Source: Primulina eburnea
Lineage: Eukaryota > Streptophyta > Magnoliopsida > Lamiales > Gesneriaceae
Direction: 5' to 3'
Assembly: GCF_022965805.1 (NCBI RefSeq)
Contig: NC_133103.1
Coordinates: 27,394,329 to 27,458,328, forward strand
DNA: 64,000 nt
A program made the translations under genes and the position numbers. Positions within the stretch are counted from its first letter, which is position 1. Each line of letters starts with the position of its first letter. The notes beneath the pieces were generated by a model, which was given only the letters and a program-made list of their open reading frames with translations, ran no database searches and was not told the origin of the DNA. This document shows, one piece after another, positions 3,710 to 58,573 of the stretch.

Positions 3710-4091
3710 CTCGCGCATATGCGCCACCCTCTTCGGCGCATATGCGCGAGACATAATGTCTCGGCGCGTTTGTCTCACGGTAGCTCGCGCATATGCGCGC
3801 CCTCATTCGGCGCATATGCGCGATGCCCTTGCTCATTTTCCCCAACTCTCGGGTACCCTCGTGCATGTGCGCCTATCCTTGTCGCGCAGATGCGCGAGGT
3901 GTTCTGCCTATTCCGCGCATTTGCGCCCGGTCTAGTCGCGCATCGATGCATATGCGCCGCCCTCTCTGGACCTCTCGTGCATGTGCGCGTATACAGGTCG
4001 CGCATGTGCGCGCAAGGTTCGATCCTAACTCCCTGGCTTCCGCACAGCTCGCGCATATGCGCGCCTACTCTTCGCGCATATGCGCGAGACC
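3710..4091. repeat. CGCGCATATGCGCG palindrome array (B solo LTR)
   Basis: Repeated copies of the palindrome CGCGCATATGCGCG and variants (GTGCATGTGCGC, CGCGCAGATGCGCG) spaced 15-50 bp apart, upstream of the TA tract in LTR orientation. This copy is more diverged than those at 23564 and 37190. Confidence 0.9.
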
Positions 4092-4218
4092 TTCGGCTCT
4101 CGCACCAATAATCTAACATGCAAAATGTTAATTCGTGTCTCGGTTAGCCCTTTAATAATCATCTTGATTAAAAATCAATAATCTTAATTTAACACGATAT
4201 AAAATCTTGGGCATTACA

Positions 4219-4641
4219 CCATTATTGTGGTTTGTCTGATCAGTCATTTATTATGTTATGGGTCACTTGCTTTGAAACATGCCTCTACGCAAAATGATGA
4301 AGTTATGTATGTTCTAGTATGCAGTGTGTTTATGACAAGTTTTCACGTTACAGCACGTCTATGTTATGTACGCATGTTCAAGTTTTAGTACTCAAATTCG
4401 AGTTCAAGTATGTATGTTCTGTTTAAAAGTTGCATGCGGTTTTATTATGTAGTACTCGCTATTTCCCAGTTTATACGTGTTGAGTCTTTAGACACACTAG
4501 ACTTGATCGATGCAGGTGAGTATGTTGATGAGGAGACAGGATGTGGCGACCAAGGGGCAGGCTTGGACTGAGCGGGAGGCTAACCCGAGGACCGCAATGT
4601 TTATGTTTTTATGCAAATGTTAATTTACTCTGATTTCATGT
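4219..4641 (+). repeat. A(+) 5' LTR, left part
   Basis: Matches the A 3' LTR from about 22726 to 23140. It begins in the middle of the LTR and ends in TCATG (4637-4641), the duplicated Copia target. Confidence 0.85.
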
Positions 4642-5591
4642 GAAAGGATCGGTGAATCGGGTGAAGAGTGTTTAGAAGGGGGGTTGAATAAACACTGCTC
4701 AATTAAAATAATTCATCGACAAACTGGTTTCAGTTGTATTACAAACTGAATCTAAAAATATTCTTTCGGTCAACAACAATCTGTTAAACTGAGTAAACAG
4801 TTGCGAAAAAACTAACTGACTGAAGGATAGAATAGCTAACTGAAAATAATAACTGAAGGTAATAACAACACAATTTGTTTCTGGATGTTCGGAGATTTGA
4901 ACAACTCCTACGTACCCCTTCTATCACGCAGATAGGATTTTCACTAAAAGACTTTGATCAAATACAAATCAGTGTACTGACCCACTTCAGTTTGGACTTA
5001 TCACTTTGCCAATAATGAAACTCTTAGCATACAACACTTTTACAGATCGTAACTGATCTTAGCACGATTTAGGAATTCTATCAATCTATTACAATGTGCT
5101 ATGAAAGCTCAAGAACGTAGTCTAGAATACTACTGATAAACTGATAAGCGTGAGCTTGATTTTCTGAGTGTGAACGGATATTTTAGCAGCGTAACAGCAA
5201 GTAAGATAACTGAGAATGCGATAGTGCTTCAGCTGCTGCCTTCGACTATTTATAGGCTTCCCTTTCAACGGTAACATTAAAGATATTTGAATATTCTAAC
5301 CGTTGATTGCCACGTCGATATATCCTGACAATAGTACACTGTTCATTTCTGAAATGCGGCGAGCCACTACCAGTTGCAGATGGCTGTACTATATGTCGGT
5401 TGTCGCTGTCAGCTGATGACGTGTACAGCTGAGAGATCAGCTAGTAAAGATCAGTTGACGAAGAAACATACTTTAGTTGAAGCGGTCAGTTGACTGATGA
5501 CGTGTTCAGTTACGCCGATCAGTTGGTCCAATTCAGTTGCTAGAATCAGTTGGTCAATCTTTTGTCAAACGCCGGAATTTCGTTTCCAACA
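4642..5591 (-). repeat. Copia 3' LTR
   Basis: 950 bp, near-identical by eye to 14793-15732. It contains many CAGTTG/CAACTG hexamers, at least five between 5440 and 5570, on the transcribed-strand side of the LTR start. Confidence 0.92.
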
Positions 5592-5604
5592 ATTTTCCCC
5601 TTTA
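5592..5604 (-). other. Copia polypurine tract
   Basis: On the minus strand AAAGGGGAAAATT directly precedes the 3' LTR, where plus-strand DNA synthesis would be primed. Confidence 0.8.
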
Positions 5605-5732
5605 TGGTGTTTGACAAAACTATAGAGAAAATACTTGACTGAATTCAAAGTAGATAAAATAATATGGCGGTTAACTGATGAATCAACTGAATTCTTATTT
5701 CTTCAAAATAAATACAATAGATACTGCGTCTA

Positions 5733-8322
5733 TTAGTGCTTCTTCTGCTGCTCTAAAATCTCCTTTATTTCTTCCCCCTTTTTGTCAAACTGTTCCATCT
5801 TGAGAGATATCTTCCCAACATCAGTAGAAAGGAGCTTGACAGAGGTTAAGATGTTATCGATAGCAGTAGTCATAGAGAGTTGTAGCAGTTCGACTTTTCT
5901 TGACATAATTGACTCCATGCTGTCGACCCGTCGGTTAATAGAGTTTTGAGTAGCAGTCAAGCTTGAAATAATTCTTCTATTTTTCTGAATGTCGTTGACG
6001 GCGAAAGAGAGAGCGGAAACAGCAGATTTAATATCCTTCAGACTTTTTAACGATTCCTGATTATCTTCCAACTTCAGAGTATGCGAATGTTGAGTGTTCT
6101 GAATCTTCGAGATGGCAGAAATCAATTGACTCATACTGTCTTGCATATTTTGAACCTATTAAAAAATAAGATCAAAATCTCCGGAGGATGGAGGATGAGA
6201 TTGTCGAGAAGTGCTGGGTTCACTTGTAGTGTGTTCAGAAATAATCAAGGCTTGATCAGTCGAGATTGTTTCAGCAGCGTCTCGAACTGAAGTATCAGCA
6301 GTAGTAAGTTCTCCTTGATCCCGTGGTGGTGAAGGGGGGTTTGGTTCAGCAGATGGTGACACATCAGAAACTGGTGCCTCTAAAGGTTGATCAATGGAAT
6401 TGACTGGCACATCAGTTGAAGGAATAGAAGAATCAACTGGCACATCAGTTGAAATAACTTGATCAGTCGAGGGATCTGACTGAACATGTTCTTCGGTAGA
6501 AAAAAGTGCTTCGGGATGGATTTGATCAGCAGATGGATCAACTTTGTCAGAGATGGGGGCGCTGATCTGTGATTCTTCCACAACTGCCTGAATGACTTCA
6601 TCAATGTGTGCGAAGGAAAGCTCAGCATCAGTATACATTTGTTGTTCAACAGTGGGTGAAAGAGGCTTATCATGAGCTGTCTCTTCAGTTGGAACAAGAG
6701 CTAAGGCTGATGATGGTTCTGTTCTTTCAGAGGGAGCTTCCTCCAATATTTCCTCTTCATCATCATCAGAATCTTCTTGATAGAGAACCAGTTCTTGATC
6801 CATTTCCCAGAACTTGATTTGGGAAAGCAGTCCTATGAGATCAGTGTCGAGCTGAGTGATTACAGCTTGATCAGCGTAGGCAGTAGGACTGGTAGGCAAG
6901 TAGTTGGCCTTCAGCTTGGCAACAATTTGAGCCAACTTCTTCGCTCTGGTCTGATCAAACAGATAATTTTTCCTCTCCATGGCTTGAGCAATCGAGGCAG
7001 CTTTAACTGTCCTAAGCACAAAGGCCTCCAGCTTGATGAATTTGCTCAGTTCAGATTTCTTTCTCAGTTGCTTGGCGAAGACTTCGGTGCGGTAAGCTGT
7101 CCAAGCCTCATAGGACTTGATTTTGGAGGCAGCAAAACTGTTAACTTTCGCCCAAACAAGATCAATATGAGTCTGAATCGAATTAGAGGGTCTGGACTCT
7201 GCAATCAACTTTCCTTTCCCTTTATCAGTACTCAAGAGATGAGGAATTTCCAGTCCTGTTCGAGTGGATTCCACCTGCTCTACAAATTTGATGCCTTTAG
7301 GTCTAGCAGGTGCCACAACAGGAGGACGAGATATCTGGATTAGAGGAGCTTTGATCCTAACTGATTTCTTTGAGGTATTAATTGAAGCTTCTTGTGGAAT
7401 GACCTGCAGAGGAACTGCTTCTATAGGCTGCTGATCAGTCGAAGAAATCAGTGCGTCAATGGGAATGGAGACCTCCGAAGTAGTTTTCACCCTTTGGGTT
7501 CTTGGTTTCTTTGTAATCTGTGGAGATGGAGTCTTTTCTGACTCAGATGTACTCAATACTAATTTTCTTTTGGTGGCCTTCAGTTGACCCAAGGTTTTGG
7601 CCTTTTTAACTGATTTGGGAGCTTCTAACTGAGTCCCAATCTCCTGTTTGATTTGCACAAACTGACCAGGAGTTATATCCATTCTGGTTTTGGGTGGCAT
7701 TGTATTCTTTGCATTGAACACTTTAAATCTTGATGACCTTTCAGAATCATCAGCCACAAATCCCTTGACTTTCAATAGATAACTGATTTGAACAGCAAAT
7801 CCTTTGGACTGTTTTGAGGATAGAAACATATTCTTCAGAATGGTAAAGATAAGGTGCTTCCAGTTAAGCTTGCGGTCAGCCATAATAGCAGAAATGGCTT
7901 GAAATTTTTCCAAGGTAAGAGCAGCAAATGATCCAGCTTTTGCCAAAAGCCCCTTGGCAACTATATCAGCAAGCAACTGAATTTCATGCTTCAGTTCCTT
8001 CTTAGGATCGGAAACTTTAATCTTCCGTCCATCAGCAGATAGAAGAGTTTGCATCTCTTCAATATCAGATGCCTTAACATCCGAGAGTTGTGCTACACCA
8101 TCAGAGGGTAAAGAAAATACATCCCCAAGAAAATATTCAGAGATGGTCAGACTGAAGTTCTTTGGGATAAATGTCCTGCGAGGATTGCCCTAAAAATGTT
8201 TTGAGTCCAGCAGCTTCGAGTTTCTGAAACACCTTCTTTACTTCAGCATCGCCGAAGGATAAGATGGAACCAAAATTAATGGCCATAGCGTTCAGCATAT
8301 AAGCGGGAATTTGGGTTGCCAT
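5733..8322 (-). pseudogene. Copia env-position ORF with C-terminal coiled coil
   Basis: Reading starts at ATG 8322 (MATQIPAYML). The frame shifts near 8180-8195, then stays open for over 600 codons to TAA TAG at 6161-6156, and continues in the same frame from ATG 6146 for 137 codons. The first third is hydrophobic/helical and resembles the N-terminal domain of hypothetical proteins I recall from Gesneriaceae. The middle is basic and Pro/Ser/Lys rich; the later part is acidic, rich in Asp/Ser/Thr-Asp-Gln. The last segment has heptad-like Leu/Ile spacing typical of a coiled coil. No signal peptide or membrane helix is obvious, so envelope function is not supported. Role unknown. Confidence 0.6.
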
Positions 8323-8871
8323 TAAAAACTGATTGAGTTCCTGAGAGAAAATTCGAAGGATGAAATAGTTCTTGCTCTCAAAAGATTGTGGATAAATGTA
8401 AGGTGAAACTGAATCAAGGCGGGTAATGGTACATATGTACGTGACTATTCGAAATCTGGACACGTGTCAGTCCATAGAAATTTTGAAAAAGTAGAGTGTG
8501 TACGTGTGCTATAAGCATGTGTACAATTTGAGCGGTAAAAATTGAGTCCACGTCATAGACTGAAATTCATCATGAGATTAGCAGACAGTCACGTCATTGA
8601 TTTGGAATAAAATAGATTTAATTAGTTAACTTATATGAGAAGATTAGTGAAGGATTCAACTGAATGATCAGTTAGTACAAACTGAGTGTTTTCAGTTGAA
8701 AATACACTAACAACTGTCTTCTCAGTTAACCTCTTAGACCATTATTCCCCCTTAATAAATGCAAAAGAAAACAAAATGACGGTAATAGACAGAAATGATT
8801 AAAGGAGAGCCTGGTGCTTGGCAGATTAATCGTCACTTAAGAAATGTCCTTTCATTTCCCTCATCTTGGCC

Positions 8872-8879
8872 TATAAATA
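8872..8879 (+). promoter_or_regulatory. TATA box of the antisense gene
   Basis: TATAAATA on the plus strand, 56 bp before the ATG at 8935, antisense to the Copia genome. Spacing suits a transcription start near 8905. Confidence 0.6.
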
Positions 8880-8934
8880 AGAGTAAGAAGGTTAGTCACA
8901 GCTATCTCAGCAAATAGTTTCAAAGAGAAGAACA

Positions 8935-9312
8935 ATGGCCGGTGCTGGAAGCTCAAGCGTCTCTCCGTTGTCACTGCAGGTCAAAAAGGAGGCCATAGAA
9001 GACGAAGTCTTTTACTCAAGCCTTTCCTACTGGGAGGAATTGCAGGAGTTGGAGTTCCGGTACTACTCTGGACAGGTCACCACCTTCAAACGGATGGCCC
9101 AACTAAGAGAGGTGCGGGAGCTCTTGAATATTCCTGCAGGGGTGAACGTCTTCAAGGATGGGCATCTCTATCAACTCTTTCTTCTGAAGGAGCTGGAGCT
9201 CCTCCACCGCATCGCTTCCTCCCACAGTTTCTGCAAAACCTCTTTTTCAGCACTAGCTGCTTGGTTGAGTATGTGGATTGCTGATGTGGAGGAAAAAATT
9301 ATGAGAATGTAA
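8935..9312 (+). CDS. Antisense 125-codon gene inside Copia
   Basis: Uninterrupted reading frame from ATG 8935 (context ACAATGGCC, good for a plant start) to TAA 9310-9312. It is preceded by TATAAATA and followed by AATAAA at 9325-9330, so it has the parts of a complete small gene. It lies between the Copia RT and the env-position ORF, on the opposite strand to both. The protein starts with a Ser-rich stretch (about residues 1-15), then is largely helical and charged (Glu/Leu/Arg), with two Cys/Trp-containing helices near the end. No domain is recognised. Intactness stands out because gag, pol and the env-position ORF are all broken. It could be a captured host gene, or an accessory ORF of this lineage. 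Function not assigned. Confidence 0.65.
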   Translation: MAGAGSSSVSPLSLQVKKEAIEDEVFYSSLSYWEELQELEFRYYSGQVTTFKRMAQLREVRELLNIPAGVNVFKDGHLYQLFLLKELELLHRIASSHSFCKTSFSALAAWLSMWIADVEEKIMRM

Positions 9313-9324
9313 ATCGCTCCTATT

Positions 9325-9330
9325 AATAAA
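9325..9330 (+). promoter_or_regulatory. Possible poly(A) signal of the antisense gene
   Basis: AATAAA 13 bases after the stop codon, followed by T-rich sequence. Confidence 0.45.
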
Positions 9331-9518
9331 ATGGTTATTTTGTTTTATCATTGTTCTCCTTTATTCCTGCTTGCAATGTTTTGTTTGAGATAAAAGCACA
9401 AGAACTACTGAGACGCTAACTGACATCAGTTAAAAATTCATAAAAATAAGCAACTCACTTAAGCAATTAGTAAGAAGCCAGTAAGGCTAACATATGAATT
9501 ATAAACAATGATAATTAA

Positions 9519-12500
9519 TTAGGATAAGTCAATTAATCCAAGTATATTGCGAATATGAGAAAACTTAGTCTCAGCCAGTGGTTTGGTGAAGATGTCAGCC
9601 GCTTGTTGTTCAGTTGAGACGTATTCCAATTTGATATTCTTCTTTAAACCATGATCTCTGATGAAGTGATGTCTAACATCAATGTGCTTGGTCCTGGAGT
9701 GAAGAACTGGATTATACGTGATAGCGATTGTACTCGTGTTGTCACAGAAGATTGGTGATTCCTTTGCTTCAACACCATAATCCTTCAGTTGTTGCTGAAT
9801 CCAGAGCAGTTGGGCACAGCAGCTTCCAGCAGCAAGATATTCTGCTTCAGTTGTGGAAGTTGTTATGGATGTTTGCTTCTTACTGAACCAAGAAATCAGT
9901 TTGTCTCCTAGAAACTGACATGATCCACTTGTGCTTTTTCGATCAAGCTTACATCCTGCATAGTCTGCATCTGAATAGCCAACTAAATTAAACGATGAAT
10001 CTTTAGAGTACCATAAACCAACATTTTGCGTGCCTTTAAGATATTTCAAGATACGTTTGGCAGCAGAAAAATGTGATTGTTTAGGGTTAGCTTGAAATCT
10101 CGCACACATACATACAGCAAACACAATATCAGGACGACTAGTAGTTAGGTACAGTAATGAACCTATTAAACCTCTGTAAAATGTCGTCTCAACTGACATT
10201 CCCCCTTGATCAGTGTCTAATTTAACTGATGAGCTCATAGGGGTGTTTGCAGCTGAACATGATTCCATGCCAAATTTCTTCAGCAATTCCTTCGTGTATT
10301 TAGTTTGACTGATAAAAGTTCCTGAATCCAGTTGTTTCACTTGTAGACCGAGGAAGAATGTTAGTTCACCCATCATGCTCATCTTGAATTTTTCCTGCAT
10401 TAACTTGGAAAACTTCTCGCATAATTTGGGGTTAGTTGACCCAAAGATAATATCATCAACATAGATTTGAACAAGTATGATATGATCATTCTTGGAAAAT
10501 TTGAACAATGTCTTATCAACTGATCCAACTGAAAAGTCATGATCAGTTAGAAATTTTGAAAGAGTTTCGTACCAAGCTCTTGGAGCTTGTTTAAGACCGT
10601 ATAAGGCTTTGTTCAAATGATAGACATGATCAGGAAAGTGATGATTGACAAAACCTGGGGGTTGTTCAACGTAGACTTCTTCCTGTAACGGGCCGTTCAG
10701 AAATGCACTTTTTACGTCCATTTGGTAGACTTTGAAGTTTTTGAATGAGGCGTAGGCTAGGAATATTCTGATTGCCTCCAGTCTTACAACTGGTGCATAA
10801 GTCTCATCGTAATCAATTCCTTCTTCCTGCCTATATCCTTGTGCTACCAACCTTGCTTTATTGCGCACAACTGATCCATCTTCGTTTAGTTTGTTCCTGT
10901 ATACCCACTTTGTACATATCACAGTTTTTGAGAGTGGTCTTGGAACTAAGTTCCAGACATTGTTATGGATAAACTGATTTAGCTCTTATTGCATTGCATT
11001 TATCCAGTTAGGATCGGCAAGAGTTTCATCAGTTTTCTTTGGCTCCAGTTGAGACACAAAAGCTGCATGTATAAATAAATTAAGCATTTGATTTCTTGTT
11101 CTTACCGGATCAGATGGTTTACCTATCACTAATTCTGGAGGATGTGACTTCTTCCATCTGAGTTCAGAATGTGTTTCTTCTGTATCAGCAATTTCCTCAG
11201 TAGGCAACTGAATGTTTTCAGTTTCAGTTGGAGCTAATTCAGTTGGAAACTGATTCTCATTAGTATGCTCCACCAACTGATTGTCAATATTTGCTTCAAA
11301 TTCAGCTGATTGATCCAATATGTCAGGTTCGGGTGTTTGTAGATTGTTTTGGTTATTGTGGATATCTTCTTCATCATCATCATCATCTAAGCTTATATCT
11401 GTAAATCTATCAGCTAGCTCAACTGTATCAGTTGGCTTAGAAGTTAGTGTAGACTCATCAAATACAACATGAATAGATTCTTCAACATTCAAAGTATTTT
11501 TGTTGAAGACTCTATAAGCTTTACTTACTGAAGAGTAACCAAGAAATATTCCTTCTGCAGATTTAGCATCAAAGGCTGTTAAATGGGTTTTACCATTGAC
11601 AAGTATAAAACATCTGCAGCCGAATATTTTGAAGTAAGAAACCACACTTTTTCTTCCATGCCAGATCTCATAAGGTGTTTTCATATGATTCTTATTAATC
11701 ATTGATCTGTTTGAGTATAACACGCAGTGTTCACTGCCTCTGCCCAAAACCTTTGAGAGATAGAGGAATCAGCAAGCATTGTTCTAGCAGCCTCCTTGAG
11801 GGTCCGATTTCTCCTTTCAGCTACACCATTTTGCTGAGGAGTTCTGGCTGCTGAGAGCTCATGCTTGATTCCGGTATTCTCTAAATAATTTGAAAGAATT
11901 TGATTGATAAATTCAGTTCCTCGATCGGACCTGATTCTATCAATTCCAACTGATTTTTCATTTAATAATCTTTTGAAAAGCTTAATCAGTTGAGCAGCAG
12001 TTTGGTCTTTGGACTTGAGAAATAAAACCCAAGTGAATCTCGAAAAATCGTCTACAACCACCAAGGTGTATTTCATTCCCCCTAAGCTCATGACTGGTAT
12101 AGGACCAAATAGATCCATATGTAACAGTTCTAAGCATCGGGAAGAATATTTACGACCCTTGTTCTTAAAAGAGGATTTGATTTGTTTACCAAACTGACAT
12201 GTTGAGCAAATTTTGTCCTTGATAAAATCCATTTTGGGCAATCCAGTAACAAGATCGTGGTTACTCAAATATGCAATAGATTTGAAATTTAGGTGGTTCA
12301 ATCTCTTATGCCACAACCAGTTTTTAGAAGATTTTGAGGCAATAAAACATACTGGTGCATAAGGCTGATCATTCCAACTAACTTTATAAGTGTTTCCACA
12401 CCTTTTGCCAGTTAGGATGATCTCTTCAGTTAAGTTTCTGACTGAACAAGAATGTTTGTCAAACTGAACTGAGAATCCATTATCGCATAACTGACTAATG

Positions 12501-12735
12501 CTGATCAGATTATACTTGAGATCTCAACTAATAAAACATCATTAATGGTGAAATTACCATGGATAAGCTTACCCTTACCCACAGTTTTACCTTTAGAGTT
12601 ATCTCCAAAACTGATGTTTGGTCCAGTATACTTAGTCAGTTGAGATAATAAATTTGAATCTCCAGTCATGTGGCGTGAACATCCACTGTCCAAATACCAT
12701 ATAGATCCAATGCTTGTTCCTGTTACCTGCAATTA
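9519..12735 (-). pseudogene. Copia pol (protease, integrase, RT, RNase H)
   Basis: Read on the minus strand in Copia order. Protease: DSGCSRHMTG near 12680. Integrase: HKRLNHL and CSTCQFGKQ zinc-binding residues near 12310-12190, then the DDE core with MDLFGPIP near 12115 and SDRGTEF near 11920. A GAG-polyprotein-like linker follows. RT has YVDDIIFGS near 10460. RNase H has DADYAG near 9975 and TEAEYLA near 9835. The frame breaks at about 12518 (one base lost after VLLVE) and between 11750 and 11700, and a TAA replaces a sense codon at 10988 (INAMQ then stop). The RT-RNase H part from 10985 to 9519 is otherwise open. It would copy and integrate the element if intact; as it stands it cannot make a full polyprotein. 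Confidence 0.92.
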
Positions 12736-12817
12736 AACACAAGATAAGATTGTGGTACCCCTTTTTATTTGGGTCCAAAGTTGATTAGTCCTTTAGGAAT
12801 CCAAACTTGGATCAGTC

Positions 12818-14742
12818 TTACTGACTGTCCAGTTGCTGTATTCCAAATTGTCTTTCCCGACCTGTGTGTGTGTGTGATGTATGGCATGTAGAAGATACAG
12901 CATGTGATTTGCCCTTTTTCGACTGATTGTTCAGCCAGTATCTTTTCTGAACTGGCCTGCTGTTATAGTAAATTGAATAGCCACTTGAATGGTTTTTGCT
13001 GAAAAATTTTGTTGGTTGACTTCGTGAGTCAGTCACAACTCTTGGACTATAACCAATACCACATCTTTTTCCCTTGCTCATATTATGAGTCGGCTGTTCA
13101 ATCAGTTTACTCGGCTCAACTTGTTCTTGTACCGTAACTGATTTGACATATTGAATATATTTCCCTTTGTCCATGTTCAGTTTTGGTTGAATATCTTTGG
13201 AGGGTATTTCATCCTGGTTACTGAACCCTAAGCCATTTTTATCAGTAAATGATTTCTGAGAGTTCTGTATATCAGTTAATGCAACGGATGATTTATTCCA
13301 AGCCTGAATGAGCTCAGTTTGCTTTGCATTTTCAAGCATTAACTTTTGAATCATTAATTGATTCTTGCTCCTTTCAGTATTGAGTTCGGCAATCTCCCTT
13401 TTTAGACTCAACATTTCAACTGATACATCAGTTGTTATCTTATTGTCAGAGGGATCAGTTTGCTCTACTCTGGCCTTTTCAAATGATAAAGCAAGCTTTT
13501 GATATTCACTAACCATGTCATGAAGAGTCGAGATAAGTTCTTCTCTTGTGAAATCAGTTGAACTAAAGTCAAATACCTGTTGGCTGCTTGAATGAACTTC
13601 TGTATCATCAGCCATCAAGCACTTCACTTCTTCCTCATCTTCACTAGAGCTACAAGAGGTTTCTGGTTCTGACTCTTCGCTGTCAGTCTCTGCCCATTTG
13701 TCTTTGCTATCCTCAGCTAGGAGTACTTCATGCTTCTTTCTGTAAGGCTTCTTGTCGTCCTTAGATCTCCTCTTATGCTCATACACTTTCTTCTTTCTTT
13801 CAGTCGAAGCTTGACTATCCTTTTTAGGTTTTGGACAGTCAGCAATAAAATGACCAGGTTTGCCACAGTTGTAGCATGCATTGGACTCTTCTCTGGGATT
13901 GTTTCTTTGGTACTGCTTCTGAAAGTTTCCTTGATTCTTCCTCATGAATCTTCCGAATTTCCTGATGAACAATGACATGGCGTCATTGCTTAATTGATCT
14001 GCGGCTTTCTCAACTGAACTAGTTGGTTCTGATCTCACTGCAGCTAAGGCAGTAGTTGCTGCTGGGGTAGATGGTTCTCCTTCTCGAGTGTGCAGTTCAA
14101 ACTCATATGCTTTTAAGTCAGCAAACAATTCATGGAGTTCAACTTTGTTCAGGTCTTTAGATTCCCTCATAGCCATGGTTTTCACATCCCATTCTTTGGG
14201 AAGACTTCTGATAACCTTCAGTGCTACTTCTTTATTGGTATACACCTTTCCAAGTGCATTCAGTTCGTTGATGATGCAGCTAGTTCTCTCTTCATATTCA
14301 TGCATCGTTTCTCCAATTTTCATTCTGATGTTATCGAACTTTTGTACAGCAACAGATAGCTTGTTTTGTTTGGTTTGTTCATTGCCTTCGCAAAGCTGTA
14401 TTAATTTCTCCCAAATCTCTTTGGCTGTTTTGCACGTCTTGATTTTACTGAACGTCACTTTGTCCAGTGTTTTGTACAATATGTCTTTAGCTACATTATC
14501 CAAATTTGCTTTCTCTTGTCTTCGGCAGTCCATTCATCTCTGGGCTTTTCAATAAGGTGAGGTGCCCCATCTGTGATTGCGACTGCTGTGTTGGCTTTCA
14601 AAATCTTCATGGGTCCGTCAGTTATTACGTACCACATGTCATCATCCTGTGCAGCTAGGTGAGCCTGCATCCTGATCTTCCAGTCGTCAAAATCTTCTCT
14701 GGAGAACATGGGGATCTTGTTGAATGAAGACATAATGAGCAA
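12818..14742 (-). pseudogene. Copia gag
   Basis: Starts at MLIMSSFNKIPMF (14742), 50 bases after the LTR. It holds the Copia gag core (YEERTSCIINELNAL, ELFADLKAYE) and one zinc knuckle, CYNCGKPGHFIADC, near 13870. One base is missing near 14515, so the first 80 codons are out of frame with the rest. The part from 14533 to 12818 is open and unusually long after the zinc knuckle, with an acidic stretch (EESEPETSCSSSEDEEE) and Gln/Asn-rich helices. It would form the nucleocapsid. The gag-protease junction also changes frame between 12818 and 12735. Confidence 0.9.
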
Positions 14743-14770
14743 TTTGAGTATAGATATTCTTTTGAAAGGA

Positions 14771-14790
14771 TATGACTTGCTCTGATACCA
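14771..14790 (-). other. Copia primer binding site (initiator Met tRNA type)
   Basis: On the minus strand TGGTATCAGAGCAAGTCATA begins two bases after the 5' LTR. TGGTATCAGAGC is the usual match to the 3' end of plant initiator tRNA-Met. Confidence 0.9.
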
Positions 14791-14792
14791 CT

Positions 14793-15732
14793 TGAAAGGA
14801 TCGGTGAATCGGGTGAAGAGTGTTTAGAAGGGGGGGTTGAATAAACACTGCTCAATTAAAATAATTCTTCGAAAAACTGGTTTCAGTTGTATTACAAACT
14901 GAATCTAAAAATATTCTTTCGGTCAACAACAATCAGTTAAACTGAGTAAACAGTTGCGGAAAAACTAACTGACTGAAGGATAGAGTAGCTAACTGAAAAT
15001 AATAACTGAAGGTAATAACAACACAATTTGTTTCTGGATGTTCGGAGATTTGAACAACTCCTACGTCACCCCTTCTATCACGCAGATAGGATTTTCACTA
15101 AAAGACTTTGATCAAATACAAATCAGTGTACTGACCGACTTCAGTTTGGACTTATCACTTTGGCAATACTGAAACTCTTAGCATACAACACTTTTACAGA
15201 TCGTAACTGATCTTAGCACGATTTAGGAATTCTATCAATCTATTACAATGTGCTATGAAAGCTCAAGAACGTAGTCTAGAATACTACTGATAAACTGATA
15301 AGCGTGAGCTTGATTTTCTGAGTGTGAACGGAAATTTTAGCAGTGTAACAGCAAGTAAGATAACTGAGAATACGATAGTGCTTCAGCTGCTGCCTTCGAC
15401 TATTTATAGGCTTCCCTTTCAACGGTAACATTAAAGATATTTGAATATTCTAACCGTTGATTGCCACGTCGATATATCCTGACAATAGTACACTGTTCAT
15501 TTCTGAAATGCCGCGAGCCACTACCAGTTGCAGATGGTTGTACTATATGTTGGTTGTCGCTGTCAGCTGATGACGTGTACAGCTGAGAGATCAGCTAGTA
15601 AAGATCAGTTGACGAAGAAACATACTTTAGTTAAAGCGATCAGTTGACTGATGACGTGTTCAGTTACGCCGATCAGTTGGTCCAATTCAGTTAGTCAATC
15701 TTTTGTCAAACGCCGGAATTTTGTTTCCAACA
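14793..15732 (-). repeat. Copia 5' LTR
   Basis: 940 bp, pair of 4642-5591. It differs by scattered substitutions and small deletions, for example a shorter block near 15690 where the other LTR has CAGTTGCTAGAAT. Confidence 0.92.
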
Positions 15733-15737
15733 TCATG

Positions 15738-37473: not shown

Positions 37474-37576
<103 letters not shown>

Positions 37577-39267: not shown

Positions 39268-39269
39268 AC

Positions 39270-45267: not shown

Positions 45268-45321
45268 ACGGTGCAAGGTTAATTTTTTTCGAGTTTCGTT
45301 ATTTTTTGTCTCATTCTTCTT

Positions 45322-46301: not shown

Positions 46302-46513
46302 AAGATGTCTTCTCACAAGGCGTGATCACGCCTTGTCCGAAAACATCTTCTGAAAAAAAAAAAAAAAAAAAATTTCTTACACACAGTAGATGTTTTCTAG
46401 CAAGGCGTGATCACGCATTGTGAGAAAACATCTTCTGATTTTGAAAAATTTTGGCCCTATATGCAAAAGTTGTCTCTTAACAGCGCGTGATCACGCCTTA
46501 TAAGAAAACATCT
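46302..46513. repeat. Three long hairpins around GGCGTGATCACGCC (F interior)
   Basis: Palindromes at 46317-46334, 46402-46419 and 46482-46500, each inside a longer inverted repeat with outer arms AGATGT and ACATCT. They are about 82 bp apart and lie just after the gag stop. The F LTRs have the palindrome with only the left outer arm. Confidence 0.88.
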
Positions 46514-48166
46514 ACGGATTTGTCTCAAGGGCAAATAAAAGTATTATTATTATTTAAAAAAAAAAGAATTTACGTTTCTTTTATTTATTCTATTTGTTCT
46601 CACCCCTTTCACATCTTCTCTCGCAGGCTTCTTCAACACCGCCACGACAATAGAAAGCTTTGCTCTATGATGCCCAACAATTTTCAGGGGAGTTCTCTAA
46701 CTTCTCTTGCTTGCTTTTACTGTCTATGTTGCGCATCTAAATTTTGTGTCATTGAGGACATTGCCACATATAGGTATGGGAGGGGGTATATAGCCTTATT
46801 TCTCGTTTCAAGTTCTATTTTTTTCAAAAAATTTTTGCATGTTTATTCGAGAAAAAAAATAAAGAAGAAAGAGAGGAGAGAGTCCGGCAAAATGAATTTG
46901 TTTGATCCATAAAGCATCTAGTGTTTATTCGCTATCTCTCTCATTTGAATCTTGAATGCCTCTGATGCGAGTATATGAAAAAAAAAAAAAAACTGATGTA
47001 TTCTCTGTGTGCAACTGATTTTGCATTCTTCCTGCTACATTTATGAGAAATTGCTTTTGATGATGTGTTGAAATGACAAGTGTATGGGGTCTAGCACACA
47101 TACCCTTTTTTTTGTAAGCTTTGAGCCATGAGCAATCATCATATCATGCTCCAATTTTTTCTTGATTGTGTGTTAGTCATACATTGATGATTTTTCTAGA
47201 ACTTGCTTTGTTATACATGTCTTTGTTGATACCTTGTGATGGATTAGGTGCATAAACAAAGTAAAAGGCATTAGGTTCAAACCATTTTCTTTCGCGTCAT
47301 CTTAGCCGTTCTTTGAGCCTACCCTGATTCATTAACCCTTAGTGAGCCAAGTTCGAGCCTGAGCCTATTTGTTGAAAAATAACCACGTTACAAGCCATGA
47401 TAAATCCTTTTTGTTGGTTATCCCTCTATTTGAACCTTGAATTGGAGAATCATACAAACTTTTCGCATTTAACAACGCTTTGAGCCAAGAAAGTGCAAAT
47501 TGTTGAGATCGAGGATTAATGCTCGAAATTGTTGTCTCAAAAACTCCTTATGAAAAAAAAACAAAAAAAAAAGAGAAAAAATATTTGAAAAAAATATATG
47601 TAAGAAAAAAAAAGGGAGTGAGAAGGAAAATAAGAGCAACGAAAAAGAAAATGCTCTTGGATGTTATAATGAGATTGAAAATGTTATTGTTAGATGGATG
47701 CAATTGTTTCTGTGGAAAGTGTGTATGTGTTCTTCAGTTCCATAAACCGTTGTACTTATTTCCTACCTGACCTCTAGCCACGGTACAACCCATTTACAGC
47801 CCTTGTTTGTGCATTTTAATTCATTCACTTGGTAGAGGATATGATATATTTGCAAGCTTATGGTAAAAATTTTCAGTGTTTTGACAAGAGAGCTCCTTGA
47901 TACATACCTAGACACTTACGAGTGAAATGGGCGAATCTTGTGAGGAGTGTTTGGACTCTATGCGTTTTTATTTCTACACATTCGGATGGAAGCAATTGCT
48001 CATGATGTTGGTAGTCGGATGCCCAACAATTACATTTCTTTGGTGCATGAAAAAAATATATATATTTTACGGACAAGTAAATGAAGCAGAAAGAGGATAA
48101 TGAGTTGAGATAATGAATTGAACTCTATTATGCTTGAGGGCAAGCATGGTTTAGGTGTGGGAGATT
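46514..48166 (+). other. F 3' non-coding region
   Basis: No supportable gene. A C/T-rich run ends in CTCTCGCAG (46618-46626), which looks like a splice acceptor. The pair ATTGAGGACATTGCC (46752) and ATGGGAGGGGGTA (46777) matches the internal purine-run region of D. A- and GA-rich low complexity is at 46850-46885 and 47545-47660. Confidence 0.6.
48130..48147 (+). other. Hairpin next to the F polypurine tract
   Basis: Arms ATGCTTG and CAAGCAT around the loop AGGG. The purine-rich tract GGTTTAGGTGTGGGAGA follows directly, up to the LTR. Confidence 0.7.
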
Positions 48167-49524
48167 TGATTAGCTCATAATAGTTTGTATTTTTATTGTC
48201 ATATCTCTCATTGTTACCACTTTCAACGTGCTTAATTGACACATTTTTGTGTGATTTTATTGTAGGGTGAAGTTTTCTGTTCTTGCGATAAATTTGGGCT
48301 AAAAAGGGTGATTTTATATCATAATTAAAGTTGCCGATATGATCTTAGTGGAAGACGTGGAGCAGAAAAATTCAGAAGATGTTTTTGCATAAGGCGTGAT
48401 CACGCCTTGTGACGGTTCCTTGGCTGCCTAGTGAGATAAGAAATTTTTATATCAAGGGAGAAATAGAAGATAAAGTTTTTTTCCATAAAAAAACTCTATA
48501 TTATTGGAGGATATTTTCTAGTATATTTTAATCTTTAGGTATTAGGTATTTATTTTTAGTTTATTGGGCTTTTATTCTTTTGAACCCATTATTTCCTTTT
48601 TCTTTCCAACCTAATTCACGTAAAAAAAAAAACAAGAGGCTGCAGATTTTTCTAATTCAATTCTCCAACCAATCTCCAACAGCTCTCGTGAAGTGAAGAA
48701 AAAAGGGGCGCAAGGCTAAGTTTCATTTTTATTCAAGGGATAATTTTACTATTTCGATTTATCACTATGAGGCTTTTTTGCACTTTAATTTATTATTTTT
48801 GTTTGCCCAGGTATTTGTTGATTTATTATTTAATTATATGAATGTTATATGTCAATTAATCTGACAATTTAATTTGATGTATGATTTTCTACTGCTATCC
48901 ATGAATTCAGTTATCCGTAATTGTCATGAACGATTGGTACATGAGTAGCGATAGATTAGGTGTGTTGTGCTATCATAGCATATTTAATCTAAATAAATCA
49001 ACGAAACTCGATCTATCAATTGTAGCTATCTCGGTTGTTAGATTTAGGATTAACTGTTTTCACAAAACGAAAATGATATCTTTAATTAATATGGAACGCT
49101 ATCGTGCCCAGTTAATTATTAATAAGTTTTGACTGGATGCTGGGTTCGGTCAATTATTTTAGGAAAACACAAGAATTTTAGTGGCTATCCCTATAATTCT
49201 AAAGTTAATTGCTTGTAATTACATGAATAAATATAGGTTAGCCGATGAACAGTGATACAATTGAATAGTAGAAATCCCTTGAATCGAGCTTGGTAATATT
49301 AATTTACATTTAATTAGTTTTTCATCTTAATTTGTTATTTCTTCTTGCATGTTAAATTAGTTCTAGTATTTTATTTAATTCATATCCAAAATCCCCCCTT
49401 TATTTGCATTTTGCTCGAAAGAAATAAATCTCCCGTTCCCTGTGGATTCGACCCTGCTCATCATTATGCTAATTTTATTTAGAGAGTAGGAATTTAAGTT
49501 TGGTGGCACAACGACAGCACACCA
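48167..49524 (+). repeat. F 3' LTR
   Basis: 1358 bp. Carries the palindrome at 48391-48408. A few substitutions separate it from the 5' LTR, so the insertion is fairly recent. Confidence 0.93.
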
Positions 49525-50312: not shown

Positions 50313-52501
50313 TGTAATGCCCCAGAATTGTCGTAGAATTGATCAGACAAGATTAATGTAATGCCCAAGACTTGTAGAATTAATCAGATAAGATTATGAG
50401 ATGTTACAAGGGTTAAAAATGGAAATTTCGAAGGTGAGGCCGAAGCATCATCGCACCCGCGGTGCAACCAAGACCGCACCCGCGGTGCATGGACAGTAAG
50501 TTGGCAAGAAATTCCGAAGCATCACCGCACCCGCGGTGCTAGCCAGAGCGCACCCGCGGTGAAGATACCGCACCCGCGGTCTTGCACACACCGCACCCGC
50601 GGTCAAGACACCGCACCCGCGCTCGTTGCACTACCGCACCCGCGGTCATGCGTGTCGCATGAAAAATGATGCCACGTTTTATGATTTGCATGCAGTATAT
50701 ATATAGAAGAATTACACGTAAAATCCCTCAGAAATTCAGACAGAAGTCGAGATTTTGGAGAGAATATCCTTACGCCTTTTAGATTTGCGATTGTGGAAGA
50801 TCCGTCCATTAGAATTCAAATCCGACTTCAGTTTTGAGCTTCTTTCAACTTGAGCTACACAAGGACGTAAGTTTCGTTACGTTTTGAGATGTTTTGAGAA
50901 TACGATGTTGTTAGAATTGAATATGATTCAGATATGGTGTTTATGCTACAGTAGGTATTGTATAATCGACGTCAGATTTAAGAACAGACTGTTTATACAA
51001 TTGTTATGATTTTCAGAAGATATTGATTGAGATTAAACACTAGATTTGTATTGTTCTTGATTGAAGAATAGAGAGATTATTATTTTTATGTGTTCTGGAT
51101 AGATTATTCAGTATATATGTGAAGTCAGATCGAAGAAATCATACCGTATGCCTATGTTATGAATCTCAGCATATCTTGAGTTGCATTTGATAGATATTGA
51201 TATGCTGGAATTAGAAGAATGATAATATGGTATTGATTACGAGTTCTGATATGATATTTGTGATGTTGACATCGACGGGGTTATTCAGATTGTATGGTTA
51301 TACCGTCGAAACATCAGTTGATTTAGATTGATCAATTCAGATATGATTTCGATTAGATTGTGATATTATTGATATGACTCAGATGGTATCTTGTTCAAAC
51401 ATTGATCAGATTGTATACTGAATTGAGTATTGATCAGAACAGATTGTATAATGAGTTATTCACTGATACAGCGTATTCGATGTTGTCTTTTCAGATTGAG
51501 ATGGACAGAGTTGAATACAGATCATCGTCTTCGTCAGACCGGGACGACAAAGGTATGATTCATGTGATATTCGGGAAGAAACAACTCAATTGAGATCCCC
51601 ACTTGAGTTGCCCAATAAATCACATACTATATTCTTGTTTATGATTTATATGATTATGCTTTGTTTACTGATTGTATTCATGCATTTAAGATAGGACAGT
51701 TTGGAGATCAGCCAGACTGCTAGACGTTCGGCGATATCACAGCTTAGGGGAAGATCACCTCCCTTATTGTAGATGTGGATACAGATCAGGCCGAAGTTTA
51801 GGAATAAGACGTACAGCACCTCGATTGGGAGGGTAGGTGACAGCCAGTGACGTCTTATTCACCCCGGGATCCCTAGAGTTATAGATCGAGTCAAGTCTAG
51901 ACATGATTTGATTAGGAATTCATGCTTATATGGATGTGGCTCCTAGATCATGGGACCCATCGTTATTGCATTCAGTTGTGCTAGCATGTTTTTATGATTT
52001 AGATTGTTTATATGCATGTTTATCTGATTTGAGTTGCATGCTTAATTCCATAGATTATGAAATATATTGTGTTTATACATGATCGCATGTTTTATGAATT
52101 AGTTTGTTTATATACATGCTTACCATGTTTTATACTGGGATTTATTCTCACCGGAGTTATCCGGCTGTTGTCGTGTTTTGTATGTGTGCATGACAACAGG
52201 TGGGGCTGGATCAGGGTCGAGAAGATGATGAGAGAAGACGAGTTTAGCATGGTGATTCCGGACTTACAGTAGATTGGATTTTACTACTAGAACTTTAGTA
52301 GTGAATCTTAGATTAGAATGTTGTACATTATTGTATTTTAATACTGAATTTGTATTTTTATATACAGACATGTATAGTATTTAGATTCCATTACCTTCCG
52401 CAGTTATAATTTAAAAAGAAAAATTTTTGACCCTGTTTATCAGAACAGATAAATAAATCCCAACGGTGATTAAGAAGATGATTAGCGTCCGGGTCCCCAC
52501 A
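50313..52501 (+). repeat. E 5' LTR
   Basis: 2189 bp. Its first 44 bp are tandemly repeated with changes (50313-50356 and 50357-50398, both starting TGTAATGCCC). Holds eight GC-rich hairpin units and a TATATATATA run at 50696-50705. Confidence 0.93.
50451..50646. repeat. ACCGC-ACCC-GCGGT units, E 5' LTR (8 copies)
   Basis: Eight copies of CCGCACCCGCGGT or close variants. Each has arms ACCGC and GCGGT around the loop ACCC. The array ends about 50 bp before the TATA run. Confidence 0.92.
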
Positions 52502-53798: not shown

Positions 53799-56390
53799 TG
53801 ACTAAAGAACAGACTCAGAATTCACAACAGGTACTATTTCTTGTATGATTATATGCATAGGTATTGATATGTACTAATGCATTATTTATGAGAATCTGTG
53901 ATTGAGTAGCATGGAGATATGCTATATCTGTTGGATCTGGGTATACTGTAGTATTGATTCCTTGGTTGTTGAGGAATATATTGATATCAGAAATTTCTAT
54001 GACATATGATATACTACGGTTAGATAAGAATGAGAGTGAACTAGATTGCGATGTACTTGTGTTATATGATTCCGATTGCATTATTGACATGTATATGCTA
54101 AACAAGTACAGAAATATCGTAGAATGTGTGCCAGAAACGGTAAGATTCAGACCAGATCTGGCTGATAAACGGAGATTTTCCGGTAAGGATTCTAGATCCA
54201 GAATTCTTTAGATCATTATATTGTTTATGACTCGATTATTACAAAAAGGAACAGATGGTATCCTTATGTATTCAATAGATCCATTGAAATCGAGTCTAGC
54301 AGTGACAAAGTTGCTAGTAATATAATAGTTGACTGGTGTTTGCCTAGATAAGATTTCAGATGTGTTTGATATCAGAAAGGTAGATTTCAGAATTGAATCA
54401 ATACCGAGTATTGCTGGTATATTAGAACAAAGTACAGAATGACTGACAGAATTGATATAATTGACAGATAAAAGAACATTAGCTGAGAAATCCAGTTGAT
54501 TGAGTGTTTCTCTGGAAGATATTTCAGTTCTGTTTCTAAATTGATAGCGTTTAGGTTGCAGAAGTATTCTGAAAATTATGCTTGGTATATCTATGATTTA
54601 TTGATATATTGCGGCATTTGATTGATTATATTGAATATTCGAAGACCGTGTTAAATATTCAGAGAACTATGATCATTGTATACAGAAATGGGTCAGGTAT
54701 GAATCCAATATGCAGTTATGGATACAGTGTTTATTCAGAATATGCAGTATCTGAAGATCGATTGATTTAGATAGTTAAGACAGAAAGATCAGGAATTCCA
54801 GAATGTCAGAAATTTATTATCTGCAGATTATCTTATTCTGATTATTTTATTCTCTCATTGTTATATATCTGTTGAGTATTGTTATTGTTCTACATCAGTA
54901 TTTGTGCGATATCTTATATTGTTGGGAGCATATGTTATTTGCAGATAAGATATAGCAGTTGATATGGGCAGTATGAGGATTGGTCAGATAGCCAGAATTT
55001 ACAGTTGCTTGATTTTGTTATTTTATGAGTTTTCTTAAACTCACTAGATCTGTGTAGGTTCTTTCTGTTCTGAATCTGTGTAATATTACTGTTATTGTGA
55101 ATCAGTGTTGATACAGTTTATTGTAACCAGTTGAGTGTACATCAGTTCAGAAATCAGAGGGTTCAGAATTGTATTTTGCTACTCAGAACAGAACATTAAT
55201 CAGATTAACAGATATGTGATTTGGTGTTGTCTCAGATTGATTATTTTATGATATCAGATGTTTCAGAATTGGTTACAGATTTTGCTATTGATAGTCAGAG
55301 CCGAATACCATGTAGGTATTTCTTCTTTAATTTATGATTATTCACTGATTTGTTTATACAGGATAGTTCGAATCTGAATTCACGGATAACATCAGAACCG
55401 AACAGTTATGGATTCAGTTTTCATTCAGATAGTTATGAATGTACGTTATTCGAACAGACAGTTGTGATATAAACAGATTAGATCAGTTGTAACAGAATTT
55501 GTACAGAAATATTGGCAGAAAGTGTACTGATAAGTCTGAATTGCTAACAGAAGAAGACAAAGAGATAGAAATCAGAAGCTTATTACAGATTTTGTATATT
55601 TCTGAATAGAAATGGGAGTACATTTCTATGGCTTTCGTAATAAAATTACCGCCATTTTCTTTAGATTATGATATGATATGATTATGATTGACAGATTATT
55701 CAATCTATATCTATCAGTTTGTATCAGATTACGTACAAACAGAACCAGATGGCATAGATCAATGTCAAAGAAATAGTCAAATTGACGAGAATGCAAGAAT
55801 TAGATGATATCAGATTGTGATTTTGACGGAGTTGTACTTGTGATAGATTATATCATAAGCTCTCTTGTGCAGATTTATTACAGATTGACAGATAGTCAGA
55901 GTATATTACCAGATATTGACAGATAATTGTAGAGCTTTAGTACTGGATGTTAGTACTAGTTGATATAGATTATTGTCATTGTGTAACTTACTGTATGACA
56001 ATAGCTATCAAGATAGTTCAGAATGGATAGATTTAAGAAACCAATGTCGGATGATGACGATTGGTATTGGAATATGAAGATTGATTATGTCCTAGATTGG
56101 GATAAACAGATAGGATAACAACTACAGATGGTATTGTTTTGTTATAGATTACAGGTTGGTATATACGGATGTTGTATAACCAATATTGTGAGATGAATTC
56201 AGTCAAAAGGATTGTGAGAAGTATTGTGATAGGATACTTCTTGACTTTGTATTCCTGATTAGAATCAAAAATGGATACAAGGGAGATATTGCCGAATGAT
56301 GTTATTAAAAGGAGTTTGGATGGTAAACTCTGTTTGCCTCTATTAGATTGGGATTGATTAGTTGCGAGTTCGAGGACGAACTCAGTTCTA
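53799..56390 (+). pseudogene. E pol, heavily decayed
   Basis: No frame is open for long, and the DNA is AT-rich with many TGATAT/CAGAAT strings. Remnants remain. Protease-like: DSDCIIDMYMLNKYR near 54075, where Gly-Met-Asp would be expected, and VRFRPDLADKRRF near 54140. Integrase-like: a block near 55931-56045 resembling the region after HPQTDGQ in B, with a stop where Trp is expected. RT and RNase H motifs are not recognisable. Confidence 0.65.
56366..56383 (+). other. Hairpin next to the E polypurine tract
   Basis: Arms GAGTTCG and CGAACTC around the loop AGGA. The polypurine tract AGAGGGGGAGAAA follows at 56391-56403. Confidence 0.72.
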
Positions 56391-56403
56391 AGAGGGGGAG
56401 AAA
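56391..56403 (+). other. E polypurine tract
   Basis: AGAGGGGGAGAAA directly before the 3' LTR. Confidence 0.9.
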
Positions 56404-58573
56404 TGTAATGCCCCAGAATTGTCGTAGAATTGATCAGACAAGATTAATGTAATGCCCAAGACTTGTAGAATTAATCAGATAAGATTATGAGATGTTACAA
56501 GGGTTAAAAATGGAAATTTCGAAGGTGAGGCCGAAGCATCATCGCACCCGCGGTGCAACCAAGACCGCACCCGCGGTGCATGGACAGTAAGTTGGCAAGA
56601 AATTCCGAAGCATCACCGCACCCGCGGTTCTAGCCAGAGCGCACCCGCGGTGAAGATACCGCACCCGCGGTCTTGCACACACCGCACCCGCGCTCCTTGC
56701 ACTACCGCACCCGCGGTCATGCGTGTCGCATGAAAAATGATGCCACGTTTTATGATTTGCATGCAGTATATATATAGAAGAATTACACGTAAAATCCCTC
56801 AGAAATTCAGACAGAAGTCGAGATTTTGGAGAGAATATCCTTACGCCTTTTAGATTTGCGATTGTGGAAGATCCGTCCATTAGAATTCAAATCCGACTTC
56901 AGTTTTGAGCTTCTTTCAACTTGAGCTACACAAGGACGTAAGTTTCGTTACGTTTTGAGATGTTTTGAGAATACGATGTTGTTAGAATTGAATATGATTC
57001 AGATATGGTGTTTATGCTACAGTAGGTATTGTATAATCGACGTCAGATTTAAGAACAGACTGTTTATACAATTGTTATGATTTTCAGAAGATATTGATTG
57101 AGATTAAACACTAGATTTGTATTGTTCTTGATTGAAGAATAGAGAGATGATTATTTTTATGTGTTCTGGATAGATTATTCAGTATATATGTGAAGTCAGA
57201 TCGAAGAAATCATACCGTATGCCTATGTTATGAATCTCAGCATATCTTGAGTTGCATTTGATAGATATTGATATGCTGGAATTAGAAGAATGATAATATG
57301 GTATTGATTACGAGTTCTGATATGATATTTGTGATGTTGACATCGACGGGGTTATTCAGATTGTATGGTTATACCGTCGAAACATCAGTTGATTTAGATT
57401 GATCAGATTCAGATATGATTTCGATTAGATTGTGATATTATTGATATGACTCAGATGGTATCTTGTTCAGACATTGATCAGATTGTATATTGAATTGAGT
57501 ATTGATCAGAACAGATTGTATAATGAGTTATTCACTGATACAGCGTATTCGATTTTGTCTTTTCAGATTGAGATGGACAGAGTTGAATACAGATAATCGT
57601 CTTCGTCAGACCGGGACGACAAAGGTATGATTCATGTGATATTCGGGAAGAAACAACTCAATTGAGTTCCCCACTTGAGTTGCCCAATAAATCACATACT
57701 ATATTCTTGTTTATGATTTATATGATTATGTTTTGTTTACTGATTGTATTCATGCATTTAAGATAGGACAGTTTGGAGATCAGCCAGACTGCTAGACGTT
57801 CGGCGATATCACAGCTTAGGGGAAGATCACCTCCCTTATTGTAGATGTGGATACAGATCAGGCCGAAGTCTAGGAATAAGACGTACAGCACCTCGATTGG
57901 GAGGGTAGGTGACAGCCAGTGACGTCTTATTCACCCCGGGATCCTAAGAGTTATAGATCGAGTCAAGTCTAGACATGATTTGATTAGGACTTCATGCTTA
58001 TATGGATGTGGCTCCTAGATCATGGGACCCATCGTTATTGCTTTCAGTTGTGCTAGCATGTTTTTATAATTTAGATTGTTTATATGCATGTTTATCTGAT
58101 TTGAGTTGCATGCTTAATTCCATAGATTATGAAATATATTGTGTTTATACATGATCGCATGTTTTATGAATTAGTTTGTTTATATACATGCTTACCATGT
58201 TTTATACTGAGATTTATTCTCACCGGAGTTATCCGGCTGTTGTCGTGTTTTGTATGTGTGCATGACAACAGGTGGGGCTGGATCAGGGTCGAGAAGATGA
58301 TGAGAGAAGACGAGTTTAGCGTGTTGATTTCGGACTTACAGTGGATTGGATTTTACTACTAGAACTTTAGTAGTGAACCTTAGATTAGAATGTTGTACAT
58401 TATTGTATTTTAATACTGAATTTGTATTTTTATATACAGACATGTATAGTATTTAGATTACATTACCTTCCGCAGTTATAATTTAAAAAGAAAAATTTTA
58501 GACCCTGTTTATCAGAACAGATAATTAAATCCCAACGGTGATTAAGAAGATGATTAGCGTCCGGGTCCCCACA
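56404..58573 (+). repeat. E 3' LTR
   Basis: 2170 bp, near-identical to the 5' LTR. The main difference is one hairpin unit fewer. Ends GGGTCCCCACA at 58573. Confidence 0.93.
56542..56718. repeat. ACCGC-ACCC-GCGGT units, E 3' LTR (7 copies)
   Basis: Seven copies. Relative to the 5' LTR one unit and its spacer (about 20 bp, near 50596-50620) is missing. Confidence 0.92.

Follow-up and report, generated by a model that had tools for sequence, protein, structure and literature searches.

The question raised by this locus is why the long terminal repeats (LTRs) of several Ty3 retrotransposon families in one stretch of the Primulina eburnea genome each carry GC-rich palindromes of their own, usually a short distance ahead of a TATA-like box. 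The stretch analysed (the window, 64 kb of contig NC_133103.1, to which all counts below refer) is a nest of plant LTR retrotransposons, as recognised by self-comparison and LTR ends. The palindromic words quoted in a first-pass annotation are all present where it placed them or a few bases away. We consider it probable, though well short of certain, that these palindromes form promoter-proximal arrays bound by sequence-specific proteins, which probably act as dimers or multimers; on this view each family uses a private word, a unit of about 73-74 bp has been duplicated with its phase kept, and words have been swapped. The LTRs, delimited by self-comparison and their ends, and the control element are as follows.

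20645-23331, plus strand: 3' LTR of family A, A(+)
39268-41960, minus strand: 5' LTR of A(-)
23437-23963, plus strand: B LTR fragment
37063 to about 38660, plus strand: B 3' LTR
2181-4218, minus strand: B(-) LTR
24093-26265 and 34810-36194, plus strand: D 5' and 3' LTRs
50313-52501 and 56404-58573, plus strand: E 5' and 3' LTRs
43884-45244 and 48167-49524, plus strand: F 5' and 3' LTRs
4641-15732, minus strand: Ty1/copia element, the control within the window, with CAACTGA repeats in its U3

GC-rich dyads were scored with arms of at least 7 bp, loops of at most 8 bp and an arm GC content of at least 50%, and chance levels were taken from local dinucleotide shuffles (100 for the window, 200 per region). 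The window holds 45 such dyads, as compared to a shuffle mean of 6.3 and a maximum of 12. Thirty-three of them lie in the eleven Ty3 LTRs and six in the interior of D (two of these six are not the D word), none was found in the two Ty1/copia LTRs by the same scan, and the remaining eleven non-LTR stretches hold zero (six stretches) or one or two (five). An equal palindrome density in shuffled or unrelated LTRs, which the first-pass annotation had named as a refutation, was not seen for the window as a whole. By region, the observed count was reached by 0 of 200 shuffles for A(-), the three B LTRs, the two D LTRs and the D interior, and by 3 of 200 for A(+); the F LTRs were borderline (7 and 8 of 200), and the E LTRs failed, their count of one being reached in 29 and 22 of 200. 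What the scan scored in each E LTR is one neighbouring dyad, TCATGCG..CGCATGA, instead of the E word, whose stems are 5-7 bp, so that the evidence for E is copy number, that is, seven to eight near-identical word copies in 200 bp. The arrays are listed below.

22062-22246, plus strand: A(+) 3' LTR array of half-words ACACGGACCC and GGGTCCGTGT with a 73-bp period; TATAGT about 25 bp further on
40391-40530, minus strand: A(-) 5' LTR array of AGCGCCTAGGCGCT words, spacings 81/41; TATAAAAC at 40380
23564-23805, plus strand: B 5' LTR fragment array, 8 dyads, spacings 23/31/22/51/23/51/23; TATA at 23851
37190-37431, plus strand: B 3' LTR array, 8 dyads in the same register as the 5' fragment; TATA run from 37477
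3710-4088, minus strand: B(-) LTR array, 11 dyads CTCGCGCATATGCGCGAG, spacings 23/51/23/62/31/23/51/23/51/23; (TA)n TATA run from 3691 down to about 3608
24285-24399, plus strand: proximal dyads of the D 5' LTR, three of TCGCTAGGGCGGTCA-N4-TGACCGCCCCAGCGA; TATAAAGA at 24504; further dyad at 25193-25226
35001-35157, plus strand: D 3' LTR counterparts, two one-armed remnants and one two-armed dyad (35122-35155)
31798-32111, plus strand: D interior array, four full dyads and one partial of the D LTR word, right arms spaced 73/74/62/71
50448-50648, plus strand: E 5' LTR array, 8 copies of ACCGC-ACCC-GCGGT, spacings 23/51/23/20/23/20/23; TATATATA at 50696
56539-56719, plus strand: E 3' LTR array, 7 copies (one 20-bp unit fewer than the 5' LTR); TATATATA at 56767
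44106-44127, plus strand: single dyad AAGGCGTGATCACGCCTT of the F 5' LTR
48389-48410, plus strand: single dyad of the F 3' LTR
46315-46501, plus strand: F interior array with the F LTR dyad in three copies (spacings 85/80), 3' of the gag-like open reading frame (ORF) at 45283-46182

The six words are unrelated and family-specific, as had been proposed: 61 of their 62 occurrences lie inside their own family (17 of 17 for D), the one exception being an 8-mer at 14611. The B word CGCGCATATGCGCG has 13 exact copies and, with degenerate ones, makes 27 dyads in three LTRs (8, 8 and 11). The A(+) array has four left and three right half-words, two of the seven carrying 2 mismatches, and A(-) has three words (0, 2 and 5 mismatches); a fourth match in the F interior (47390, 6 mismatches) was left out. 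The description of the palindromes as mostly multi-copy dyads is therefore right for B and E, with fewer copies in A and D, and wrong for the F LTRs, which have a single dyad and no array. Two LTR features of other kinds were also recorded. The A LTR has a second tandem array at 22570-22686 with a 30-bp unit CGTTAAATTATGAACGGGGACCAATCAGCC, recognisable by eye in A(-), and F has an AT-rich hairpin with 13-bp arms in the 5' LTR (44187-44216) and a 9-bp-armed counterpart in the 3' LTR (48474-48495).

The position of the arrays is the next part of the answer. Six of the eight distinct arrays have a TATAWW 10-49 bp beyond their last copy, namely at 10 bp in A(-), 45 in B, 18 in B(-), 47 in E, 49 in the D 5' LTR and 11 in the D interior, and the chance per random site is 10-27% for those six. 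The claim that the last copy lies about 11-50 bp before a TATA-like run was borne out for these, whereas A(+) and F have only weaker TATA sequences (25 and 37 bp on). In a ninth case, that of the D 3' LTR, there is no TATAWW within 400 bp. The assumption that the A array is near the LTR start had to be given up, because the array is in the middle of the LTR, at 1.42-1.6 of 2.7 kb. GTAAGT is found about 170-270 bp past the TATA in A(+), A(-), the B 3' LTR and E, which would be compatible with a spliced leader; B(-) has no GTAAGT at the corresponding distance. The CpG observed/expected ratio of the arrays is 0.81-1.52 against 0.77 for the window, A(+) (0.81) and the D 5' LTR (0.85) being barely higher. 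As separate observations, the TATA box of B consists of a (TA)n microsatellite whose length varies greatly among the three LTRs (23851, 37477-37576 and 3608-3691), and about 750 bp of the D 5' LTR (24402-25150), including the only nearby TATA of the D LTR, are absent from the 3' LTR and lie between direct-repeat copies that end in a dyad arm.

The LTR word of D is used a second time inside the element, in the order given here.

31798-32111, plus strand: the interior array listed above
32123-32130, plus strand: TATAAAAA, 11 bp past the final dyad of the interior array and ahead of a C/T-rich leader; putative internal promoter
32417-33565, plus strand: ORF with a PF20167 (Transposase_32) match (E 2.1e-43), 382 aa, at the env position of D, with its ATG at 32417

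Since the D word is reused before a second TATA and a gene, the arrays would serve promoters rather than the RNA 3' end or reverse transcription.

Spacing and phase link families whose words are unrelated. By autocorrelation, a lag of 73 or 74 is strongest in A(+), B, B(-) and the E 3' array; it is third in the E 5' array (after 43 and 23) and second in the D interior (after its double, 147). B and E have in common a 23 + 51 = 74 subpattern. Among 240 periods tested (6-30 bp), 10.5 bp is the best for dyad positions, and the strictest null, in which each distinct spacing was jittered once for all families, reaches the observed phase in 41 of 10,000 cases. The figure is 27 of 10,000 when the D interior is counted by right arms including the partial copy, and 46 of 10,000, with a best period of 10.6 bp, when the B 3', E 3' and D 5' LTRs, first left out, are added. 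Taken singly, B, B(-) and E each give 1.5-3.5%.

Comparison of related copies indicates which parts of the arrays last. In B the dyads and their distances are kept and the spacer letters are not: the 14-bp dyad cores agree with the consensus at 11-14 positions, while the five spacers of exactly 33 bp are mutually only 9-45% identical and the eight inner 5-bp spacers are all different. Between the copies B1a and B1b, 10 of 243 array sites differ as compared to 16 of 127 in the preceding stretch. In A the word itself has been replaced, as the A(-) array is at the position homologous to the A(+) array and its words are unrelated. The two A LTRs are 60-85% identical over much of their length, with some stretches at 49-58%; identity is lowest, 31-38%, in four 100-column windows starting at A(+) 1342-1492, and the next window has 33 of 82 aligned columns identical. 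The A(+) array is at LTR positions 1418-1602, and the break in identity starts about 75-100 bp ahead of it. From about 160 bp past the E array onwards, the E and B LTRs are 67-77% identical in alignment; inside the array their alignment is poor and full of gaps. The arrays are also unstable: apart from single-base indels, the one indel that separates the two E LTRs is an array unit of 20 bp, and in the D 3' LTR the two dyads without one arm correspond to 15- and 21-bp gaps relative to the 5' LTR in otherwise near-identical sequence.

The course of events we propose would run as follows. Site arrays would stand directly upstream of the LTR promoter and, in D, also of a second, internal promoter at TATAAAAA, each family having its own word. 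A unit of about 73-74 bp would be duplicated in tandem to give new arrays, and because this is about seven helical turns, the sites would remain on one face of the helix. Selection may then retain dyads and phase while the spacer sequence drifts, and the word could be swapped in place with the flanking LTR conserved, as would be expected if recognition escapes or tracks a changing partner. The effect of binding could be activation or protection from silencing. The first-pass annotation had suggested promoter-proximal modules for dimeric host factors, and the TATA position, the reuse of the D word at an internal TATA, the 10.5-bp phase and the conservation of B dyads speak for such modules; the host is one option for the source of the factor, and D may encode its own.

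Several results weigh against this proposal. All counts come from one 64-kb window, and the families are not independent draws because A, B and E may share descent, the B and E LTRs aligning in part. The 73-74 period was noticed in the data and not predicted, and A(-) (41/81), F (85/80) and the D 5' LTR (lag 83 first) are off this grid. The phase is individually non-significant in A(+), A(-) and F and reaches 7% in the D interior, and the F LTRs hold one dyad each. Within the B1a/B1b array, 7 of 144 dyad sites differ as compared to 3 of 99 spacer sites, so the dyads are no better kept than the spacers and recent copies give no sign of purifying selection on dyads as such.

The alternative that the arrays act mainly as RNA, with transcribed hairpins feeding small-RNA production as in maize Sirevirus palindromes, we regard as possible and the less likely explanation. 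A folding energy below -40 kcal/mol per 110 nt is reached on one strand or both by ten of the eleven arrays, but by neither the F 5' LTR nor the copia U3 control, and this value is the cut-off for small-RNA-like regions in the available part of a maize study (PMC10760457). The arrays could thus template small RNAs, as is argued for Sireviruses in the same portion of that study (PMC10760457), and to this extent the earlier suggestion of structured RNA stands. It is not favoured as the primary role: the 42 non-complementary dyad pairs comprise 11 G.T, 10 A.C and 21 other pairs, and because G.T is not favoured over A.C there is no sign that a sense-strand RNA stem has been kept. About half of the 40 merged low-energy stretches in the window fall outside the arrays, and maize Ty3 elements generally lack a peak of such structure, as far as the accessible text of that study tells (PMC10760457). 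The 10.5-bp phasing, the TATA proximity and the internal-promoter copy are not predicted by an RNA role, helical phase being meaningless for RNA, and since the effect would harm the element, such a role explains a cost of the arrays and not their maintenance.

A self-encoded reader is a further alternative, which we hold only tentatively and as unlikely. D is the sole Ty3 family in the window with an env-position gene, and its PF20167 protein, expressed from the putative internal promoter, would be an anti-silencing factor like VANC. By binding the D palindromes of both LTR and interior, it would protect them from methylation and activate the LTR promoter as well as its own. The predicted model of the protein has a core pLDDT of 94 and aligned best with VANC21 in one unreplicated structural comparison; no sequence similarity between D PF20167 and VANC was found. 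VANC proteins of the VANDAL elements, Mu-like DNA transposons of Arabidopsis, are encoded by the transposable element, counter silencing and recognise short private motifs in noncoding tandem arrays (PMC5735166). The D system is similar in its private short-motif noncoding arrays, the fast change between relatives and the adjacent element-encoded protein. It differs in that D has LTRs, a primer-binding site (PBS), gag and pol, unlike a Mu-like DNA transposon, and in that VANC21 motifs are short direct words whereas the words here are dyads.

A neutral origin, in which slippage and rearrangement driven by palindromes produced the arrays without any selected role, is improbable: the arrays are indel hot spots (the E 20-bp unit, the two D 3' LTR dyads without an arm), duplication similarity persists in the A(+) and D interior spacers and weakly in those of E, and the B1a/B1b dyads are no better preserved than their spacers, but across B and B(-) spacer similarity is gone while dyads and exact spacing remained, the words reappear at distant internal sites in D and F, and neither the pre-TATA position nor the phase is expected from neutral repeat dynamics.

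The hosts of the arrays are of two kinds. Retrotrans_gag (PF03732) proteins are encoded by A, D and E, and the match of the gag-like ORF of F is weak (E 0.0011). RVT_1, RNase H and Integrase_H2C2 were found in A and D, the pol domains of D being in Ty3 order, and SH3_Tf2-1 in A and B; the domain scan, which included no pol ORF of E, reported no chromodomain model at the integrase end of A and B. Among 16 homologues of the E gag, 12 are from Primulina and 2 from Dorcoceras. On the strand opposite to the D gag ORF, 26890-26996 (minus) matches Rfam snoR71 with 41.2 bits (cut-off 40). The PBS GGCGCCGTTGCC is at 26273 in D and 45251 in F, with presumed tRNA assignments, and the PBS of A(-) and E we likewise take to be of the initiator-Met type. 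A, B and E are candidate Tekay-like chromoviruses, a label suggested by LTRs that start with TGTA-TGCCC and, in A(-) and E, by the initiator-Met PBS. D and F fit Athila-like Ty3 elements on the PBS GGCGCCGTTGCC, as presumptively assigned, and D also on its extra 3' ORF with PF20167. Such an extra 3' ORF with PF20167 appears in the consulted portion of a report on sunflower Athila 14 (PMC11728184).

The first-pass annotation had known of no palindromic theme across many families, and this does not hold up. In 2010, Bousios described in Sirevirus LTRs family-specific palindromic repeated-motif (RM) boxes, CpG islands, a TATA on average 37 bp past the island and extra copies before the env gene, according to the available part of the paper (PMC2829016). 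The novelty of the palindromes is lowered by this published architecture (PMC2829016). The arrays here resemble the RM boxes, as far as that partial text describes them, in the multi-copy palindromic LTR word (8-11 copies in B, 7-8 in E, fewer in A and D, not in F), in having a CpG-rich cluster a short way ahead of a TATA (TATAWW is 10-49 bp off in six of the eight arrays) and in the extra copies of D (31798-32111) upstream of the env-position ORF 32417-33565. By the same partial account, Sireviruses are Ty1/copia elements, whereas the hosts here are Ty3 elements of two PBS types, and the Sirevirus CGG-CCG core occurs in only two of the six words (A(+) and D), is inverted as CCG..CGG in E and is absent from B, A(-) and F. 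The 73-74-bp grid, the 10.5-bp phasing and the in-place word replacement are not mentioned for Sirevirus boxes in the part of the paper at hand (PMC2829016). As far as the literature compared goes, parts of sources included, what is new is the occurrence of arrays in two kinds of Ty3 element, their common grid and phase, the in-place replacement of words and a possible self-encoded reader.

Tandem enhancer repeats in the U3 are also known from the plant Ty1/copia elements Tnt1 and Tto1, where they are short and occur in single families. The repeated motif upstream of a TATA is a common feature, but here dyads are found in several families, four of them on a common grid, and it is the copia element of the window with its CAACTGA repeats that resembles Tnt1 and Tto1 more than the Ty3 dyad arrays do. 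Thirty-eight of the 47 CAACTGA sites in the window are inside this element (4641-15732, minus), and CAACTG/CAGTTG, at 0.5 per kb in 15733-64000, rises to 12-18 per kb in the copia U3. On its opposite strand, the region 8600-9312 (plus) has TATAAATA at 8872 before an ORF at 8896-9312 (stop to stop) and three CAACTG/CAGTTG sites upstream, and may perhaps be an antisense gene with its own promoter.

Hairpins of another type were observed near the polypurine tracts (PPTs). Six perfect hairpins with a 4-base RGGR loop (AGGA, GGGA or AGGG) lie at 20608-20625, 37025-37042, 34771-34792, 56366-56383, 48130-48147 and 33663-33686, and they are the only six among 141 loop-4 dyads with arms of at least 7, most of which are TA runs. 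Five of them end 17-20 nt before the 3' LTRs of A, B, D, E and F and the sixth lies ahead of a second run of purines within D; the stems differ in sequence by family and their pairing is complete. A limited literature search, partly of incomplete texts, found no description of an RGGR-loop hairpin before a 3' LTR, and the part available of a 2013 paper urges a systematic search for PPT hairpins (PMC3601003).

For plant LTR retrotransposons, a 73-74-bp grid phased at 10.5 bp under unrelated words is a quantitative rule that can be tested across LTR families. In D, an ORF stands behind a TATA that is preceded by the private dyads also found in the LTR, and the structural comparison points to an anti-silencing DNA-binding protein as its possible product; because the dyads are shared by the ORF promoter and the LTR, and given the structural match to VANC21, the specific D protein-DNA pair is directly testable. 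A wider proposal, doubtful at present, would be that plant Ty3 elements run a VANC-like anti-silencing system, in which the 'env-like' PF20167 protein of Athila-type elements would be a sequence-specific DNA-binding protein and not an envelope, its targets would be the private phased palindrome arrays in the LTR and in its own promoter, the rapid in-place replacement of words would mark protein and array as co-evolving, and the Sirevirus palindromes beside 'env' genes would be a parallel.

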